Shown piece by piece: positions 53,326 to 62,062 of a stretch of DNA of 64,000 bases (its first letter is position 1; each line of letters opens with the position of its first letter). Where the stretch lies: NCBI RefSeq assembly GCF_030651625.1, contig NZ_JAUSCF010000017.1:62001-126000 (forward strand), in the 5' to 3' direction. A program made the position numbers and the translations under genes. Source of the DNA: Hydrogenophaga sp. (GTDB lineage Bacteria > Pseudomonadota > Gammaproteobacteria > Burkholderiales > Burkholderiaceae_C). A model generated the notes under the pieces. It was given only the letters and a program-made list of their open reading frames with translations. It searched no databases and was not told where the DNA came from.

Positions 53326-55401
53326 TCAGATGGCCTGGGGCAGGGCCAACCGGGCGGCATGGCGCCATGCGCGGCGCAGTACAGCGGGTGACCAGGACTC
53401 TTCCGGGATCAGTAGCAGCCCTTGCGCCCGCATCCGCTCACCGAACGTCACGTGGCTGGTCATCACCGTGATCGGCACCGCCAGCAACAGCGGCAGGGCG
53501 ATCGGCACCAGCCAGAGCAGGGCGTAGACATTCAGCAGGGCGACGCCCAAACCCAGGAGACAGATGATCATCGTCATTGGCGCCAGGCGAATGGCCGCGG
53601 TTTTCCAGGAAATGCCTGAGGCTTCGCGGGGTGGCGACTTCCAGTCGAGCTTGAGTCCGGTGATGGCTGCGAGCACGAACAGCGAGTGCGCGAGCATGCG
53701 CACGGGCGCTTGCAGCAGTGCGAGCACGGTTTCCATGGCAGCGCTCCCCAACAGTGCACCCGTTCCGCCAAACGCCTTCTGACCGCCTTTGAGAAAAACC
53801 GCGAGCAGGCCCAGCACGCGGGGCATGAACAGCATGCACAGCGTCCAGACCCAGAGGGTACGGATCTCTGCAGGAAGGGCGCTCCAATGGGGCACAACGC
53901 TGGTGTTGCTCACCCAGAGCGCCGTGCCGAAGGTCATGAAGGCCAGCCAGATCGGCGCCGACAGGTAGGACATCCCACCGATGACGAACATGGCACGGTG
54001 CACCCGGTGGATGCCGGGTTCTGCCATCAGACGCGAATTCTGCAGGTTGCCCTGGCACCAGCGCCGGTCGCGCTGGAGCTCGCTGAGCAGGTCCGGTGGC
54101 TGCTGCTCGTAGCTGCCAGTGAGGTCTGAGACCAGCCACACGTGGTAGCCGGCACGGCGCATCAAGGCAGCCTCGACGAAATCGTGCGACATGATGCCGC
54201 CCGACATGCCGCCTGTGCCCTTGATGGGGGCGAGTGCGCAGTGCTTCATGAACGGCTCTACCCGGATGATGGCGTTGTGTCCCCAGTAGTGCGATTCACC
54301 CAGTTGCCAGAACTGCATGCCCAGCGTGAACAGTCGACCGGTGACGCGGGAGGCGAACTGTTGTGCCCGGGCGTGCAGGGTGGCGTGGCCAATGGCCTGG
54401 GTGGCGGTCTGCACGATGCCAGCCCTCGGATTGGCCTCCATCAGTTTGACCATGGACACCAGACAGCTGCCGCTCATGACGCTGTCCGCGTCGAGCACCA
54501 CCATGTAGCGGTAGTCCTTGCCCCAGCGGCGGCAGAAGTCGGCCACGTTGCCTGCCTTGCGGTGCGTGCGGCGGGTGCGCAGGCGGTAGTAGACCTCGAT
54601 GGGGGGTAGATCGGTTTGTGCTGCGAGATCGCCGCGCAGGCGTTCCCAGGCGGCGCGCTCGGCGGCAGCGATGGCGGGGTCGTAGCTGTCCGACAGCACG
54701 AACACGTCGAACTGTCTGTTGTGACCGGTGGCGGCCAGTGATTCGCATGTCGCGCGCAAGCCGGCGAACACGGTGGCCACATCCTCGTTGCAGATGGGCA
54801 TGATGATCGCCGTGCGTGCATCGGGGTTCATGGCGTGGTCGCGCACCGAAGCGGCTGTGAGCGTGTGCGCGTCGCCGCGCAGTGTGACCCAGAAACCCAT
54901 GACGGCGGTGACGAATCCGGTGACAACCCAGGCAGACAGCACCATGAAGAGTGCCAGTTGGCCATACTGAAGCCATGCGTTGTCATGTGCCGGCTGGGCT
55001 TGCCCGAACAGGACAGTGGCAAAGGCTGTGGTCAGTAGCGTGAGCAGCGCGAACACGGCACGGCGACGGTTGGCCGCTCGCTCCCATGCTTCGGGTGCGA
55101 CGGCTTGCGCCTGTGTTCCTGCGGATGCGTAGGGCGGGAGCATCCGGCTGGCCGTGCTGAGTATCGATGTGCCCACGCTGTTCCAGAAGCCACGCCATGG
55201 GCGAGGCACCATCGATCCGCGATTCAAGGGCGGCGCAGTGAACGCATTGGGATGACGCTCCTCGCGCAGCAGACTGCGCGCCGGGAGGCTGGAGAGCTGT
55301 TCGGAGTTCACGGGCGTACCTTCGCTCTCCGCACTGTGGTGCGAGCTTGCTGGAGAGTGGCCCGGCGTGGCGCTCATTCGGGTAGCAGCAGATGTGTCCA
55401 T
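53326..55401 (-). CDS. opgH: Glucans biosynthesis glucosyltransferase OpgH (MdoH)
   Basis: Inner-membrane glycosyltransferase family 2 enzyme of 691 residues making the backbone of osmoregulated periplasmic glucans from UDP-glucose. Membrane helices flank a cytoplasmic GT domain with RTAIIMPICNEDVATVFAGL, VVLDADSVMSG (DxD), GGMSGGIMSHDFVEAALMRRAG and QRDRRWCQGNLQN. Further helices follow to the end. The ATG at 55401 overlaps opgG by 28 bases; an alternative ATG at 55377 forms an ATGA overlap with the opgG stop. Coupled with opgG in one operon, as in E. coli. Confidence 0.95.
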   Translation of the reverse strand: MDTSAATRMSATPGHSPASSHHSAESEGTPVNSEQLSSLPARSLLREERHPNAFTAPPLNRGSMVPRPWRGFWNSVGTSILSTASRMLPPYASAGTQAQAVAPEAWERAANRRRAVFALLTLLTTAFATVLFGQAQPAHDNAWLQYGQLALFMVLSAWVVTGFVTAVMGFWVTLRGDAHTLTAASVRDHAMNPDARTAIIMPICNEDVATVFAGLRATCESLAATGHNRQFDVFVLSDSYDPAIAAAERAAWERLRGDLAAQTDLPPIEVYYRLRTRRTHRKAGNVADFCRRWGKDYRYMVVLDADSVMSGSCLVSMVKLMEANPRAGIVQTATQAIGHATLHARAQQFASRVTGRLFTLGMQFWQLGESHYWGHNAIIRVEPFMKHCALAPIKGTGGMSGGIMSHDFVEAALMRRAGYHVWLVSDLTGSYEQQPPDLLSELQRDRRWCQGNLQNSRLMAEPGIHRVHRAMFVIGGMSYLSAPIWLAFMTFGTALWVSNTSVVPHWSALPAEIRTLWVWTLCMLFMPRVLGLLAVFLKGGQKAFGGTGALLGSAAMETVLALLQAPVRMLAHSLFVLAAITGLKLDWKSPPREASGISWKTAAIRLAPMTMIICLLGLGVALLNVYALLWLVPIALPLLLAVPITVMTSHVTFGERMRAQGLLLIPEESWSPAVLRRAWRHAARLALPQAI

Positions 55402-56945
55402 GTTTCGCTCACTGTGTCGTTCTTGTGTTGGAGAAAGGCGCGCAGTTCGACCGGCTTTGCAGGGTCGACGCGTTGCACGCGCAAGGTCACGCGCCAAGAG
55501 CGCGTGGCGTGGTTGGGGTAGGCCAAGGTTTCAATGAGTCGACCGTTGGCATCGGCGGTGACCACGGCGCTGACCTTTGCGTCGCTGGGCAAGGCGTCGA
55601 GAGCCGGGCCGGCAAAGTCGATCACATACTGTGGCTGGACTTTTTGTTCTGCGGGTGAGAGCTGGGTGTAGCCGTAGCCGCGACGGGTCTGGGTGACCCA
55701 GGCGCTGGGGGGACGCTGCTGGGCATCGCCTTGCCAGGCGAGTTCATAGCTGAGTTCCAGCGGCTGGCCCACTGCAGGCAGCTTGTCTGGAACCCAGTAC
55801 GCCACGATGTTGTCGTGTGTTTCGTCGGGTGTGGGCAGTTGCACCAGCTCCACCCGGCCAGCACCCCATCGGCCCAGCGGCTTGATCCATGCGCTGGGCC
55901 GGCGCTCGTAGTGCGCTTCCACGTCTTCATAGCTGGCAAAGCTGCGGTCGCGCTGCATGAGGCCGAAGCCGCGTGGATCGGTCATTGCGAATGAACTCAC
56001 CACCGGCGATTCTGGGCGCTGCAGCGGGCGCCACAGCCATTCGCCCTGGCCGGTCGCCATCATCAGGCCATCGGAGTCGTGCACTTCGGGACGGAAATCG
56101 CCGGCCATGGGCTGGTTTTCACCCGAGAGAAACATGCTGGTCAGCGGCGCGATGCCCAGCGTGTTGACCGGGCTCGCGCCCTTGCGCAGGAACACCCGTG
56201 CGTCCACCGTGGTGGTGGTCTGCTGCCCCGGGCGCACCACGAAGCGGTAGGCGCCAGTGGTGCGCGGCGACTCCAGCAGGGCCAGCACGGTGACTTCGGT
56301 GGCGTCCTTGGCTGGGCGCTGGATCCAGAATTCGGTGAAACGCGGGAATTCTTCGCCTTTGCCACCCACGGTATCAATGGCCAGGCCGCGCGCCGACAGG
56401 CCGTACTGCTGACTCGCGCCGAGCGCACGGAAGTAGCTCGCGCCCTGAAAGACGATCAGCTCGTCCTTGTAGGCGGTGTTGTTGAGCGGGTAGTGCAGCC
56501 GAAAACCGGCGTGACCCAGGTCACCCCAGGGCTTCGGATTGAAGGTGTTGCGACCGTAGTCGAAATCGTCCCGGCTGTAGGGCAAGTGGCGCACCGTGCC
56601 ATTGGGCGTGATCTCGTGGATGCGGACCGGTTCGGTCTGGTACAGGCCGAGATGGAAGAACTGGGCTTCAAAAGGCAGCCTTTCAGCGCGCCAGACCGAA
56701 CGGTCGGTCTTGAAGCGGATGTCGCGCAGTTGGTCGTAGGTGATGTCCGCCAGTGCGGGGGGAAGCTTGTCGCTGTTTGCGCGGTAAGGCTCGTTGGCGC
56801 GGGTTTGGGCCAGTTGCGTGAGTGCGTCCAGATCGAATCGCTGTGCGTGTGCCGACGCCCCGGCCAGCGTGGCCGCCAGCCCGCCCAGCAGCACCCAACC
56901 GCGCCAGCGTGCAGGTGGAGAAAACGGGGGAAAAGGAGTTGCCAT
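55374..56945 (-). CDS. opgG: Glucans biosynthesis protein OpgG (MdoG)
   Basis: Periplasmic protein of 523 residues required for periplasmic glucan synthesis. A signal peptide (ARWRGWVLLGGLAATLAGASAHA, cleavage near residue 34) is followed by the MdoG fold: FDLDALTQLAQTRANEPY, LADITYDQLRDIRF, HYPLNNTAYKDELIVFQGASYFRALG, YGLSARGLAIDT, PEVHDSDGL and DPRGFGLMQRDRSFASYEDVEAHYERRPS. The gene starts only one or two bases after the predicted start point of a sigma-54 promoter (56956-56973). First gene of opgGH. Confidence 0.96.
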   Translation of the reverse strand: MATPFPPFSPPARWRGWVLLGGLAATLAGASAHAQRFDLDALTQLAQTRANEPYRANSDKLPPALADITYDQLRDIRFKTDRSVWRAERLPFEAQFFHLGLYQTEPVRIHEITPNGTVRHLPYSRDDFDYGRNTFNPKPWGDLGHAGFRLHYPLNNTAYKDELIVFQGASYFRALGASQQYGLSARGLAIDTVGGKGEEFPRFTEFWIQRPAKDATEVTVLALLESPRTTGAYRFVVRPGQQTTTTVDARVFLRKGASPVNTLGIAPLTSMFLSGENQPMAGDFRPEVHDSDGLMMATGQGEWLWRPLQRPESPVVSSFAMTDPRGFGLMQRDRSFASYEDVEAHYERRPSAWIKPLGRWGAGRVELVQLPTPDETHDNIVAYWVPDKLPAVGQPLELSYELAWQGDAQQRPPSAWVTQTRRGYGYTQLSPAEQKVQPQYVIDFAGPALDALPSDAKVSAVVTADANGRLIETLAYPNHATRSWRVTLRVQRVDPAKPVELRAFLQHKNDTVSETWTHLLLPE

Positions 56946-56955
56946 GCCCTGTATA

Positions 56956-56973
56956 GGGCAAACCCCGTGCCAA
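56956..56973 (-). promoter_or_regulatory. Predicted sigma-54 promoter of opgGH
   Basis: On the minus strand: TTGGCACG-GGGT-TTGCC. GG at 56971-56970 and GC at 56959-56958 are separated by 10 bases, the exact -24/-12 spacing, and all conserved bases of TGGCACG-N4-TTGC are present. The expected start is near 56946, directly before the opgG ATG. Confidence 0.8.
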
Positions 56974-56991
56974 CCGATAAAAATGCTTTGA

Positions 56992-57004
56992 AATCAAAGG
57001 CTTT
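56992..57004 (+). promoter_or_regulatory. IHF-like site 1, between sigma-54 promoter and GlrR sites
   Basis: AATCAAAGGCTTT matches WATCAANNNNTTR at all but the last position. It lies within a repeat (AAATGCTTTGAAATCAAAGG and following bases, from 56981) that recurs at 57106-57129. DNA bending here would bring the upstream GlrR sites to the promoter. Confidence 0.5.
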
Positions 57005-57067
57005 CAGAGGACTTGCGCGGGTTTTCCCGTACCAAGGATCACTGACGGTGTTCCAGAGCCCTGTTTT

Positions 57068-57085
57068 TGTCGTCAGACAGCGACA
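57068..57085. promoter_or_regulatory. Predicted GlrR binding site 1 (proximal)
   Basis: TGTC-N10-GACA, perfect match to the motif described for GlrR upstream of enterobacterial glmY. Centre about 130 bp upstream of the predicted opgG start, a normal enhancer distance. The motif also contains a nested TGTC-GTCA-GACA. Confidence 0.75.
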
Positions 57086-57117
57086 GCTTGTGGGAGTCTG
57101 AGAAGAAATGCTTTTAA

Positions 57118-57130
57118 AAACAAAGGCTTG
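57118..57130 (+). promoter_or_regulatory. IHF-like site 2
   Basis: AAACAAAGGCTTG, one mismatch from WATCAANNNNTTR. It is part of the second copy of the repeat seen at 56981-57003, lying between the two GlrR sites. Confidence 0.4.
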
Positions 57131-57134
57131 ATGC

Positions 57135-57152
57135 TGTCACTCATCAGCGACA
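57135..57152. promoter_or_regulatory. Predicted GlrR binding site 2 (distal)
   Basis: TGTC-N10-GACA within a larger perfect palindrome (GATGCTGTC / GACAGCATC, 57130-57157). Centre 67 bp from site 1 and about 197 bp upstream of the predicted opgG start. It overlaps the last codons and stop of glrR. Confidence 0.75.
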
Positions 57153-58570
57153 GCATCGTCGGAAGTGCCCGCAACCCCGCCCATGCTGTCGCTCTTGAAC
57201 AGGCCTGGCGTGAGTTCGTGCTTTTGCAGCAATCGGTAGAACTCGGTGCGGTTGCGCTGCGCCAGGCGAGCCGCGTCCGCCACGTTGCCGTCGGTCATCT
57301 TGAGCAGGCCGACCAGGTAGTCGCGCTCGAAACGCTGGCGGGCGTCTGTGAAGCTGAGCACCTCGGTGGAAGGGGTGCGCAGCGCGCGCTGCACCAGCGC
57401 CAGCGACACCAGGGGGGTGGTGGTGAGCGCACATGCCTGCTCGACCACGTTGTAGAGCTGGCGCACGTTGCCCGGCCAGGACGCCATCGTCAGCGCCTTC
57501 AGCGCCTCTGGTGCAAAGCCGGAGCTGCGCTTGCCGTACTTCCTGGCCAGCTTGGCCAGGAAGTGGTTGGCCAGCAGGGCAATGTCTTCTCGGCGCTCGG
57601 CCAGGGTGGGCAGAGTGAGCGTGACCACGTTGAGTCGGTAGTACAGGTCTTCGCGGAACAGACCTTCCGCCATGGCTTCTTCGAGGTTTCGGTGGGTCGC
57701 CGAAATGATGCGCACGTCCACCGGAATGGACTGGCTGGAGCCAAGCGGACGAATAGCACGTTCCTGCAGCACGCGCAGCAGCTTCACCTGAAGCGCGGGC
57801 GGCATGTCACCGATTTCGTCCAGCAGCAAGGTGCCGCCGTCGGCGGTCTGGAACAGGCCTTTGTGATTGGCCACGGCATCGGTGAAGGCGCCCTTGACGT
57901 GACCGAACAGTTCAGACTCCAGCAGGGCTTCCGGGATCGCGCCGCAGTTCACCGCAATGAAAGGCTTCTTGGAACGAGGGCTGGCGCGGTGGATGGCGCT
58001 GGCCAGCATTTCCTTGCCGGTGCCACTGTCGCCTCGCAGCAGCACGCTGGCGTCCGATTGTGCAATCATGCGGGCCTCGGCCAGCAGGTCGGCCATGCGG
58101 TTGGAGCGGCTGATCACGTCGGCTCGCCATTCTTCATCGGCTTGCGAACTCGGGCTTGCGGGCGCCCCCATGGCCAGGGCCTGTGCGATCTTCTCCAGCA
58201 GTTCCTTGGCTTCGTAGGGTTTGGTGAGGTAGGTGAACACCCCCCGTGCGGTGGCTTCCACGGCGTCGGGGATGGTGCCGTGGGCGGTGAGCAGAATGAC
58301 CGGCAAAGAGGGGTGGCGGGAGCGTATTTCGTCGAACAGCGCGAGCCCGTCCTTGCCTGGCAGGCGCACATCGGAGAGCACCAGTTGGGGCCGCTCGATG
58401 TCGAGCTGGCTCAATGCCGACTCGGCCGATCCCACCGATGTGACCTGGTAGCCTGCCGCCCCCAGACGCATGGCCAGCAGGCGCAGCATGTCTGCGTCGT
58501 CGTCCACCACCAGGATGCGTGCGCGTGGCTTGCCAGGCGGCGTTGGGTGAGGCGCATAGGTGGCACTCAT
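57137..58570 (-). CDS. glrR: NtrC-family response regulator GlrR (QseF) with GAFTDA motif
   Basis: Response regulator of 477 residues. Receiver: acidic pocket D23-D25, phosphoacceptor D67 (LVLSDVRLPG), K117. AAA+ domain: Walker A GDSGTGKE (180-187), GGTLLLDEIGDMPP, SATHRNLEEAM and FREDLYYRLN. The sigma-54 contact loop reads GAFTDA at 227-232 instead of GAFTGA (codon GAT at 57880-57878). The C-terminal HTH DGNVADAARLAQRNRTEFYRLLQKHEL is nearly the same as E. coli GlrR, so a similar DNA target is expected. Last gene of the glrK-lipoprotein-glrR operon; start overlaps the previous stop (ATGA). Confidence 0.93.
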   Translation of the reverse strand: MSATYAPHPTPPGKPRARILVVDDDADMLRLLAMRLGAAGYQVTSVGSAESALSQLDIERPQLVLSDVRLPGKDGLALFDEIRSRHPSLPVILLTAHGTIPDAVEATARGVFTYLTKPYEAKELLEKIAQALAMGAPASPSSQADEEWRADVISRSNRMADLLAEARMIAQSDASVLLRGDSGTGKEMLASAIHRASPRSKKPFIAVNCGAIPEALLESELFGHVKGAFTDAVANHKGLFQTADGGTLLLDEIGDMPPALQVKLLRVLQERAIRPLGSSQSIPVDVRIISATHRNLEEAMAEGLFREDLYYRLNVVTLTLPTLAERREDIALLANHFLAKLARKYGKRSSGFAPEALKALTMASWPGNVRQLYNVVEQACALTTTPLVSLALVQRALRTPSTEVLSFTDARQRFERDYLVGLLKMTDGNVADAARLAQRNRTEFYRLLQKHELTPGLFKSDSMGGVAGTSDDAVADE

Positions 58571-59274
58571 GGGGGAGAGGGGCGGCTGCCGTTGCTGCCC
58601 GGCGCTGGTGGACGGGGTAGGAGACTGCGTTCGATCGCGCGCATGGCTTCAAGCCGCTCATTGAGTTGTTCGATGCGACGTGCGCTGTCGCGCAATTGCT
58701 GGGCCTGCCTGTCCACGGTGTCTTCCAGGCGGCGCTGGTTCATCAGTTTGGCAGCCAGCAGTCGGGCCAGCGGCTTGAGCGCGGCACTTTCTGGTGCCGT
58801 GTGGTTGATCACCCTCTGCAGCAGGCCCAGCGCCCGAGCCGTATCTGGCGGCTGGTTGGTGTACGACAACGCAAGCGCCAGCTGCATCTGCCGCACCGGA
58901 TTGTTGCCCGGGTCGCCCATGGTCGCGATGTGGCTCAACAGTTCGGCCGGAGGGAAGCTGCGCAAGCGCTCCGCGTGTTCCATCAGGGACACCAGATCAC
59001 CCAGCGCGAACAGCTGGGTCCCGGTGATGGCCGGCGTCGGAACGGGTGCGGGTTCTGCGGACGTCAGGTTGGCGACAGGAGAAATTTCGGGTTCGGTGGG
59101 CAGGGGCGCCAGTGCGGGGACGGCCGCAGGTGCCGCTGGTGATGACGGTGCTGAACCTGTTGCACTCGGGCTGGCACAGGCCACCAGTCCCACGCCCACC
59201 GCCAAGGTCATCAGCAGTGCGGCATGTCGCATCGAGCGCGCGGCGGCCGGGACCAGATGGAGTTCATTGAACAT
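58567..59274 (-). CDS. QseG/YfhG-like outer-membrane lipoprotein
   Basis: Lipoprotein of 235 residues. Signal peptide with lipobox LVAC, lipidated C33 (LAVGVGLVACASPS). A Pro/Ala-rich stretch (about 35-85) is followed by a helical domain (LGDLVSLMEHAERLRSFPPAELLSHIATMG to LALALSYTNQPPDTARALGLLQRVI) and a C-terminal coiled coil (DTVDRQAQQLRDSARRIEQLNERLEAM). In E. coli the gene between glrK and glrR is qseG (yfhG); position and type match, sequence similarity is only suggested. The ATG at 59274 overlaps glrK by 11 bases. M15 would be an alternative start. Confidence 0.82.
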   Translation of the reverse strand: MFNELHLVPAAARSMRHAALLMTLAVGVGLVACASPSATGSAPSSPAAPAAVPALAPLPTEPEISPVANLTSAEPAPVPTPAITGTQLFALGDLVSLMEHAERLRSFPPAELLSHIATMGDPGNNPVRQMQLALALSYTNQPPDTARALGLLQRVINHTAPESAALKPLARLLAAKLMNQRRLEDTVDRQAQQLRDSARRIEQLNERLEAMRAIERSLLPRPPAPGSNGSRPSPP

Positions 59275-60682
59275 GGGGCAATTCGATACGGAAATGGGCG
59301 CTGGTGCTGTCCGGTAGCAGGAAGACCCGGCCACCATGGGCCACAATGTACTCGTGCACGATGGACAGACCGATGCCCGTGCCTTTGACTGCATTGTCGG
59401 GCTGATGTTCGCCGCGGAAAAAGGGTTCAAAAATGCGGTCCCGATCGCCCTTTGCAACGCCTGGTCCCTGATCCACGATGTCGATGCAGGCCGAACCGGG
59501 CTGATCCGAGAGCGAGAGGCGTATATGGCCGCCGTGAGGTGAATGCCGGATCGCATTGGACAGCAGATTGCCCACCGCCGAGGCCATTTTTTCCCTGTCC
59601 ACCTGGAGCACCAGAGAAGGCCCTTCAATGCGCACGGTCAAGGCATGGGATTGCCAGTGCAGCCGCTGAACATCGACCTGCTCTTCAAGCAATTCGCGCA
59701 TGTCGGTTCGTTCGCGACGCAATTGCCGGGCTTCGAAAGCGGCCGCGTTGAAACGCAGCAGGGCCTCTATCTGCCCCTGCAGCATCTGGGTGTTGTGCTG
59801 CAGGATGTTCACAACCTCGGCCTGGTTGGGGTTGAGCGGCCCCGCCACGCCATCGCCCAGCACCGCCACACCTTCGTGCAGTGAAGCCAGCGGCGTCTTG
59901 AGTTCGTGCGAGATGTGACGCAGAAAGCGCGCCTTGTCGGCGTCGAGTTCGGTCAGACGCAGGCGCAGCCATTCCAGTTGCTGGCTCACGCGTCGAACGT
60001 CCGACGGACCCGCGATGTCAATGGGCACGTCCAGTCTGTTCTCCCCCAGACCCTGGATGGCCTTTTCCAGCCGTTTGAAGGGGCGCGCCAGCCAGATGCC
60101 GAATCCCAGTGCCATCACCACCGCCACCCCGATGGAGCCCAGGACCTGCTGCGTGAGCTGTTGCCGGCTGGTGGCGAACTGGGCCTGCAAAGCGTCGTTG
60201 CGGTTGCCGATGATGTTTTGCACAGTTTGCGCAATGGCTCCGCTGTGCACGTCGAGATCACGAAACGCCAATGTCACGTCACGTTCGCGGTCCAGGGCCG
60301 TCTCGGGGGTGCCATCGAGCAGGGCGGCGATGCCGTCCAGCTGATTGCGCCATGCGGTGGCCTGATCGGGGGGCAGCTCATTGCTCTCCAGCCGGGCGAG
60401 GATTTCAGTGGCATTGGCCGCGGTTTCCTCAAATCTGAGCCTCAACTGGTTGTCGCGCAGCACCAGCGACTGGCGTGCGGCGCGCTCCATGGTCAGACTG
60501 CGTTCGCTCAGCGATTGCGCGGCGGTGGTCAGGGCAATGGCTTGCACGGCGCTCTCACGGCTCTGGGCCATGAGGGTGTCCAGTGTGAACAACGCGCGCA
60601 ACGCGGCGGCACCCAGCAGCGCGCCAATGAGCACGAACGCGACCAGCAGCAGCTGGGGAAAGGAGAAGCGCAGGGCTCTCAC
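59264..60682 (-). CDS. glrK: Sensor histidine kinase GlrK (QseE)
   Basis: Membrane kinase of 472 residues: helix at about 8-32, periplasmic helical sensor domain (about 35-175), second helix (183-200, SIGVAVVMALGFGIWLARP), HAMP, HisKA with H259 (FLRHISHELKTPLASLHEG), and HATPase with NLLSNAIRHSP, DQGPGVAKGDRDRIFEPFFRG and GTGIGLSIVHEYI. Layout and HATPase resemble E. coli GlrK. It is 12 bases downstream of miaB and probably transcribed with it. Confidence 0.92.
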   Translation of the reverse strand: MRALRFSFPQLLLVAFVLIGALLGAAALRALFTLDTLMAQSRESAVQAIALTTAAQSLSERSLTMERAARQSLVLRDNQLRLRFEETAANATEILARLESNELPPDQATAWRNQLDGIAALLDGTPETALDRERDVTLAFRDLDVHSGAIAQTVQNIIGNRNDALQAQFATSRQQLTQQVLGSIGVAVVMALGFGIWLARPFKRLEKAIQGLGENRLDVPIDIAGPSDVRRVSQQLEWLRLRLTELDADKARFLRHISHELKTPLASLHEGVAVLGDGVAGPLNPNQAEVVNILQHNTQMLQGQIEALLRFNAAAFEARQLRRERTDMRELLEEQVDVQRLHWQSHALTVRIEGPSLVLQVDREKMASAVGNLLSNAIRHSPHGGHIRLSLSDQPGSACIDIVDQGPGVAKGDRDRIFEPFFRGEHQPDNAVKGTGIGLSIVHEYIVAHGGRVFLLPDSTSAHFRIELPHVQ

Positions 60683-60694
60683 GAAAGCGGAAGG

Positions 60695-62062
60695 TCAGTG
60701 GACCTCGCGCACCTTCACCTCACCGCGCAGTGAATGCGGGCGGGCTTCGGTGATCAGCACATCGATAAGTTGCCCCACCAGGCGCGACGCATTCGGTCCC
60801 CCGTCGAAATTGACGATGCGGTTGCACTCGGTGCGGCCCATGAGTTCGACAGCGCCGTCCTTGCCCGCACGGCGCGACGGCCCTTCCACCAGGATGCGCT
60901 GCACCGTGCCTTCGCGGCTGGCGCTGATGCGCTTCACGTTCTCTTCGATGGTGGCCTGCAGGTGCTGCAGGCGCTTGAGCTTGACCGCGTGCGGCGTGTC
61001 GTCAGGCAGGTTGGCCGCTGGCGTGCCGGGGCGCGGGCTGAAGATGAAGCTGAAGCTGGCGTCAAAGCCCACGTCGGTGATGAGCTTCATCATCTTGTCG
61101 AAGTCTTCGTCGGTCTCACCGGGGAAACCCACGATGAAGTCGCTGCTCATGGACAGGTTGGGGCGTATGGCACGCAGCTTGCGCACCGTGCTCTTGAATT
61201 CCATGGCGGTGTAGCCGCGCTTCATGGCCATGAGAATGCGGTCGCTGCCGTGCTGCACCGGGAGATGAAGGTGGTTCACCAGCTTCGGAATCCTGGCGTA
61301 GGCCTCGATCAGGCGGGGTGTGAACTCGTTGGGATGACTGGTGGTGTAGCGGATGCGCTCGATGCCCGGGATTTCGGCCACGTACTCCAGCAGCAATGCA
61401 AAGTCGGCGATTTCACCGTCACCATTGCTGGTTAGGCCCATGGGGCCGCGGTAGGCATTGACGTTCTGACCCAGCAGGTTCACTTCCTTCACACCCTGGT
61501 CGGCAAGGCCGGCGATTTCCACCAGCACGTCGTCGAACGGTCGGCTCACTTCTTCGCCACGCGTGTAGGGCACGACGCAGTAACTGCAGTACTTGGAACA
61601 TCCTTCCATGATGGAGACGAAAGCCGAGGCGCCGTCCACCTTGGCGGGTGGCAGGTGGTCGAATTTTTCGATCTCGGGGAAGCTGATGTCCACCTGCGGC
61701 AATGCAAGGCGCGCGCGCTGGTTGAGCATCTCGGGCAGGCGGTGCAGCGTCTGCGGGCCGAACACCACGTCCACATACGGCGCGCGCCTGATGATCTCGG
61801 CACCTTCCTGGCTGGCCACGCAGCCCCCCACGCCGATGAGCACGCCCTTTTCCTTGAGGTGCTTGATGCGGCCCAGATCAGAAAACACCTTTTCCTGTGC
61901 CTTCTCTCGTACCGAGCAGGTATTGAACAGGATCAGGTCGGCTTCCTCCACGTCCTGCGTGGGCTCGTAGCCCTGGGCGGCGCCCAGCACGTCGGCCATC
62001 TTGTCCGAGTCGTACTCGTTCATCTGGCAGCCAAAGGTTTTGATAAAGACTTTTTTGCTCAT
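60695..62062 (-). CDS. miaB: tRNA-2-methylthio-N6-dimethylallyladenosine synthase MiaB
   Basis: Radical SAM methylthiotransferase of 455 residues modifying A37 of tRNAs. The N-terminal UPF0004 cluster cysteines are C12, C49 and C81; the radical SAM cluster is C155, C159, C162 ([10 protein letters not shown]). TRAM domain at the C-terminus. Motifs [14 protein letters not shown] and [15 protein letters not shown] are typical. The ATG at 62062 begins [13 protein letters not shown]; a longer frame of 27 codons upstream has no family similarity. Confidence 0.97.

Follow-up and report, generated by a model that had tools for sequence, protein, structure and literature searches.

A predicted GlrR-activated sigma54 promoter at the opgG start codon in Hydrogenophaga and related bacteria

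In Enterobacterales, the glmY promoter exhibits UAS of consensus TGTN12ACA and depends on sigma54 and GlrR/QseF with the assistance of IHF (PMC6075780, in part). Which genes would the GlrK/GlrR (QseE/QseF) system serve in a genome with no recognizable GlmY? The question is raised by the 64,000-nt stretch of DNA analysed here (the window), from a Hydrogenophaga-like genome of 4.27 Mb. The GlmY RNA family (RF00128) has no match in this genome, the E. coli positive control being detected, and a glmY-like small RNA in the gap behind glrR was rejected, since the window has no Rfam match either. On its minus strand, the window exhibits the genes glrK, a qseG-like ORF, glrR, opgG and opgH in this order:

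59264..60682, minus strand: glrK (qseE), sensor histidine kinase; ORF with HAMP, HisKA and HATPase_c, synteny retained in relatives
58567..59628, minus strand: qseG-like lipoprotein ORF between glrK and glrR; assigned by position, lipobox-like LVAC seen by eye
57137..58570, minus strand: glrR (qseF), sigma54-dependent response regulator; NCBIfam PRK15115 best, Response_reg and Sigma54_activat
55374..56945, minus strand: opgG (mdoG), ATG at 56945; Pfam MdoG, 648 bits
53326..55377, minus strand: opgH (mdoH); NCBIfam MdoH, 1148.6 bits, above cut-off

The putative GlrR scores 615.2 bits against PRK15115, which is below the curated cut-off (763) and still the best of 111 matching families. Pfam identifies its Response_reg and Sigma54_activat domains and no HTH. 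The HTH region aligns with that of the Pantoea GlrR (our reference here, in place of E. coli), the stretch RNRTEFY of the C-terminal helix being identical. The window GlrR is up to 89% identical to the GlrR of named Hydrogenophaga species. The linkage glrK-qseG-glrR is present, with qseG recognized by its position; the qseG-like ORF exhibits no match in Pfam or NCBIfam, and its real start probably lies well inside the ORF. The adjacent MdoG and MdoH proteins identify an opgGH operon. The opgH ATG at 55377, chosen by eye, would overlap the opgG stop codon as ATGA; the longest ORF reaches 55497. The genome also possesses rpoN.

A preliminary description of this DNA had reported a -24/-12 element (56956-56973), two perfect TGTC-N10-GACA motifs and two IHF-like sites between the end of glrR and opgG. 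All of these were identified again. The coordinates given for the sigma54 element were correct within two bases, and both motifs lie exactly where they had been described:

57152-57135, minus strand: candidate GlrR box 1, TGTCGCTGATGAGTGACA, perfect TGTC-N10-GACA, overlapping the glrR stop codon (57139-57137)
57130-57118, minus strand: IHF-like site 1, CAAGCCTTTGTTT, between the boxes; one mismatch, called by eye, position conserved in relatives
57085-57068, minus strand: candidate GlrR box 2, TGTCGCTGTCTGACGACA, perfect TGTC-N10-GACA
57004-56992, minus strand: IHF-like site 2, AAAGCCTTTGATT, 32 nt before the -24 TGG; one mismatch, called by eye, position conserved
56972-56958, minus strand: sigma54 -24/-12 element, TGGCACGGGGTTTGC, perfect TGGCAC-N5-TTGC (0 mismatches), conserved in relatives
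56944..56947 (about 56946), minus strand: predicted transcription start, taken as the 12th nt past the -12 C on the model of the Pantoea GlmY 5' end

Both IHF-like sites were called against the IHF consensus YAANNNNTTGATW. The two boxes are spaced 67 bp. The segment thus exhibits the features of a glmY-type promoter: at least two TGTN12ACA UAS, a -24/-12 element and, by sequence, a predicted IHF site between the UAS and -24 (one mismatch, conserved position). The likeness to glmY, which the preliminary description had also put forward, extends to the geometry of an actual glmY promoter, that of Pantoea (locus L230), where GlmY lies upstream of glrK. There, the boxes TGTCGCCGATTGGTGACA and TGTTGGTATCTGGCGACA are 63 bp apart and accompanied by a third box, and TGGCATGAACCTTGC (-24) is located 102 bp beyond the box. 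An exact IHF match is found 32 nt before the TGG, the same offset as in the Betaproteobacteria relatives.

Single motifs are weak evidence. The window contains three TGTC-N10-GACA boxes against 1.15 expected, a number reached in 10 of 100 shuffles, and the genome contains 64 against 46 for the reversed pattern; boxes alone were therefore rejected as evidence, being too frequent. A second exact TGGCAC-N5-TTGC is observed at 61168-61182 on the plus strand, inside miaB, on the opposite strand and with no boxes nearby. This site is probably a chance occurrence. The joint pattern is far above chance. We scanned 200 whole genomes from the family for a strict pattern (a box, 82-112 nt, then a sigma54 site). 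It occurs once in the window's genome and in 24 of the 200, never more than once per genome, and none of the 200 contains the reversed pattern. Twenty-one of the 24 matches lie upstream of opgG or opgH. The match in G156 precedes a BON gene behind glrR, and those in G199 and G011 (L115, L120) adjoin neither opg nor a BON gene behind glrR.

The preliminary description had proposed to align the glrR-opgG gap across relatives, and this alignment exhibits the expected contrast: promoter, boxes and IHF sites are retained while the spacers drift. Among 37 segments that share one geometry, left after 42 from the family and named sets combined were thinned at 90% identity, the sigma54 element has a mean pairwise identity of 0.92, the two boxes reach 0.81 and 0.76 and the promoter-proximal IHF site 0.76, against only 0.40-0.51 in the spacers. 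The second IHF consensus, immediately behind box 1, is likewise conserved, and the box spacing is 67 bp at most loci. For counting, the family set (handles beginning with G) and the named set (L153-L232), which share species, were kept apart. GlrR (E-value ≤1e-120) is found in 54 of the 200 family genomes and opgH (E-value ≤1e-60) in 63, with both in 46. G158, with a distant opgH copy on another contig and a GlrR 61% identical, was left out, leaving 45 genomes whose GlrR is close. In 44 of them, opgG or opgH is preceded by a sigma54-like site (two mismatches or fewer) and at least one box, and 39 have two boxes; the test for box plus sigma54 site is also passed by 16 of 1284 control windows. 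G066 (L063) exhibits a sigma54-like site without a recognizable box, and five other genomes have one box only. It should also be noted that G065 (L259), a small genome in an assembly 92% complete, has kept glrR, both boxes, a -24/-12-like site and an ATG of the leaderless type, with no match to opgH or opgG at the thresholds used; this is possibly a decaying system.

We consider it highly probable that the segment serves opgGH as promoter and enhancer, depends on sigma54 and on activation by phosphorylated GlrR, and gives a leaderless opgG mRNA. This reading is based on sequence, conservation, geometry, co-occurrence with GlrR and co-migration with opgGH. From these we infer the following course of events. 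GlrR dimers would bind the two palindromic boxes and IHF would bend the promoter DNA, so that a GlrR hexamer could remodel E-sigma54 at the -24/-12 element. Transcription would begin at the opgG AUG or within about 2 nt of it, producing a leaderless opgG mRNA, and the translation of opgH would be coupled to that of opgG through the ATGA overlap. Together with the lipoprotein QseG, GlrK would monitor the state of the envelope and thereby set the synthesis of osmoregulated periplasmic glucans.

The prediction of a leaderless mRNA comes from the spacing behind -12. The 5' end of the Pantoea GlmY, taken at the Rfam boundary, falls 12 bases past the C of -12. In the window the corresponding base is 56946, and the opgG ATG begins at 56945. 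An ATG 11-14 nt past the -12 C, from which a leaderless mRNA is predicted, is observed in 33 of the 45 family genomes, where it opens opgG (17), opgH with no opgG between (10) or a short ORF before opgH (6). It is absent from the other 12, so the leaderless form is not universal. Among the named loci, 61 of 80 have opg, and 58 of these pass the promoter-plus-box filter (L207, L209 and L212 fail it). The ATG is at 11-14 nt in 53 of the 58 and at exactly 12 in 44; the five without it are from Saezia, Rhizobacter, Methylibium and two Rubrivivax. Where the same promoter type precedes BON or EF-hand genes, by contrast, the leader is usually about 40-90 nt long and in several cases contains a GGAG-like site.

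In loci from Variovorax, Xenophilus and Pseudacidovorax, a frame of 66-70 aa starts with this ATG and ends just before opgH. Over both sets we identified 22 such ORFs (L038-L040, L159, L161-L166, L168-L171, L173-L176, L187, L188, L198, L199), which share the motifs FALRPQRDGLRQKQ and FKRxPAIGDTP. The median pN/pS of 15 ORFs of 67 aa, likewise drawn from both sets, is 0.54 in frame against 1.21 and 1.33 off-frame. The one member scanned has no Pfam match. All 21 tested genomes with opgH but no opgG behind glrR exhibit OpgG homologues (39-47% identity) elsewhere in the genome.

The promoter could be as described and its mRNA still not be leaderless, if translation started at a later codon or if the ATG were kept as a signal for initial transcription. 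We regard this as unlikely, though it is the most serious of the alternatives. It would account for the 12 genomes without an ATG at this position and draws on the later in-frame starts present in 10 of the 17 opgG cases, such as the GTG at codon 18 of the window opgG. The other seven of the 17, however, have no alternative start within the next 24 codons, and by eye the sequence from this ATG resembles a signal peptide. The coding constraint on the frame that the ATG opens in the Variovorax group also argues against it.

Somewhat less likely again is that opgGH is expressed mostly by read-through from glrK-qseG-glrR, or from an unseen sigma70 promoter, with a minor part for the sigma54 promoter. 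The two genes glrR and opgG are on the same strand with a gap of 191 nt, and no terminator-like site was found in 56880-57220, as read-through would have it; but a simple consensus scan of the same interval identified no sigma70-type site either, and the promoter is retained where opgGH has parted from glrR. In G119, about 50 kb separate opgGH from glrR, and the promoter is found beside opgGH. Insertions of about 0.3-1.5 kb have come between glrR and the promoter in G022, G126, G150 and G089, where the promoter remains with opgG/opgH. Because it stays with opgGH at such loci, we assign the promoter to opgGH. That the motifs belong instead to glrR, through autoregulation or an overlap with its coding end, with opgG a bystander, is barely credible: box 1 does overlap the glrR stop codon, but the same inserts and the 50-kb split leave the motifs with opgG/H, and autoregulation is disfavoured because they travel in this way.

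An enhancer-binding protein other than GlrR might drive a genuine sigma54 promoter of opgGH, and the genome offers seven further NtrC-type activator matches, 38-53% identical across the greater part of the protein or across its AAA domain. We hold this to be very improbable. In genomes without a close GlrR we found 17 opgH loci, two of them cut by contig ends, and the boxes are in place at none of the 15 informative ones. Seven of these exhibit a sigma54-like site without the box. The co-occurrence gives a Fisher p of 3e-13, uncorrected, which overstates independence since relatives share ancestry. The same box is present at the Pantoea glmY. A search with a looser box in 399 genomes of the order also points to GlrR. 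It matched 28 genomes, against one for the reversed control; four of the 28 rows are family members already found, and 12 of the 24 new loci lie directly behind a GlrR of 60-75% identity and carry the box. By output, these 12 divide into opgG (2), opgH (2), BON (5, L243 by eye) and short or unassigned ORFs (3; L239, L240, L247). The other 12 exhibit no GlrR of at least 60% identity within their 3-kb loci; among them, L244 (BON) and L251 (two boxes) show no GlrR in view of the locus. Loci with no such GlrR beside them in 3 kb (L115, L120, L233, L235, L236, L246, L250, L252-L256) were treated as chance or other systems; in L120, L236 and L256 an activator other than GlrR is present (42-51% identity). 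Taken together, the observation made in the preliminary description is confirmed and its interpretation, in which GlrR regulates opgGH, is supported, the regulation itself being predicted from sequence.

Other genes are found behind the same promoter type. GlrR-type sigma54 promoters are observed before small secreted BON/EF-hand genes at L069, L070, L234, L241-L245, L224-L226, L229, L232 and L078. PF04972 was identified in the BON genes behind glrR at all five loci scanned, L069, L234, L241, L242 and L245; the BON gene of L244 follows the same promoter type at a locus showing no GlrR. Genes with EF-hand, or EF-hand and BON, are present at five Hydrogenophilales/Thiobacillus-like loci (one of five scanned) and at L078 (scanned). 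At the Rhodocyclales-type loci L217-L220 (two Thauera, one Methyloversatilis and one Rhodocyclaceae MAG), a bactofilin (PF04519; one of four similar proteins scanned) is divergent from glrK and has a two-box promoter. At L239 and L240, which come from two genomes belonging to another family, GlrR-type promoters precede similar ORFs of 52 aa. At L074, boxes and a sigma54 site lie from about 170 nt past the glrR stop; a terminator-like inverted repeat with a T run comes no more than about 80 nt later, ahead of a helicase-like gene, and a sigma54-driven small RNA is possible there.

In a quick tree of GlrR with one support measure (112 proteins thinned to 67 rows, those below 300 aa and near-copies within a label being left out), 40 of the 67 rows, those of the opg-associated GlrRs, fall into one group (SH-aLRT 96; 99 for its Comamonadaceae part). 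The bactofilin-associated rows group together (SH-aLRT 97), and the BON rows fall outside the opg group without resolution. The tree, which cannot separate gain from loss, is consistent with opg having been captured once as output and opgG having later been lost from the site. L075 and L076 exhibit GlrR-like regulators of 57-59% identity, that of L075 being a second copy in its genome. Each is followed by paired variant boxes, TGTCGG...CCGACA, with no sigma54 element in the usual place.

We lean, with some reserve, towards a general picture in which GlrK-QseG-GlrR acts as a cassette that senses the envelope and whose output can be exchanged. A single promoter design (paired boxes, IHF near -32 from the TGG, sigma54) would have been joined to a small RNA in enterics, to BON, EF-hand or bactofilin genes in other Betaproteobacteria, and to opgG/opgH in the Comamonadaceae/Sphaerotilaceae group. 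In this last group the promoter would mostly be fused to the start codon, so that leaderless mRNAs arise from an enhancer-dependent promoter; where opgG is not beside opgH, the AUG would usually be kept, opening the 66-70 aa protein in the Variovorax group. The different targets suggest one shared role, the homeostasis of envelope and periplasm. An envelope-stress switch that serves a small RNA in gut bacteria appears to serve osmoprotective periplasmic sugars in soil and water bacteria.

The qseEGF genes have been reported in Betaproteobacteria (PMC12691602, in part). Among the matches listed in the open-access literature, no link of GlrR/QseF with opg was found, nor does one appear in the available parts of PMC12691602, PMC12316311, PMC6075780, PMC8895600, PMC3162934, PMC3616915, PMC4603805 and PMC7563307. 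The opgGH (mdoGH) genes of Enterobacterales are the same pair, for which those matches likewise exhibit no tie to GlrR; for opgC of Dickeya, the regulation named in the title of PMC4726272 concerns RcsCDB and EnvZ/OmpR, not GlrR. Osmoregulated periplasmic glucans are a predicted output of GlrK/GlrR outside Enterobacterales. This output fits the argument, made in a part of PMC3162934, that sigma54 broadly controls the bacterial exterior.

Compared with the enterobacterial glmY promoter (PMC6075780, in part), the opgGH promoter is alike in its UAS, IHF site, -24/-12 element and close linkage to glrK-qseG-glrR. In contrast, its predicted output is a protein operon for periplasmic glucans rather than a small RNA, it lies downstream of glrR instead of upstream of glrK, it has two boxes where glmY has three, and, unlike glmY, it has a start codon at the predicted transcription start. 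The rpoE P2 promoter of E. coli, activated by QseF, has the GlrR-type UAS and sigma54 in common with it and serves a different gene (PMC6075780, in part). We predict a new output and a new architecture for a known system, and name a new conserved small ORF in Variovorax. Leaderless mRNAs are known in Betaproteobacteria, from Burkholderia cenocepacia and C. metallidurans (PMC4603805, PMC7563307, both in part), with 5' ends at the AUG or a few nt from it, where the opgG 5' end is predicted to lie too. Those of B. cenocepacia are tied to a TA-rich promoter motif (PMC4603805, in part), whereas the leaderless start of opgG would stem from a sigma54 promoter; if the predicted start site is true, this is a conserved enhancer-dependent promoter yielding leaderless mRNAs.
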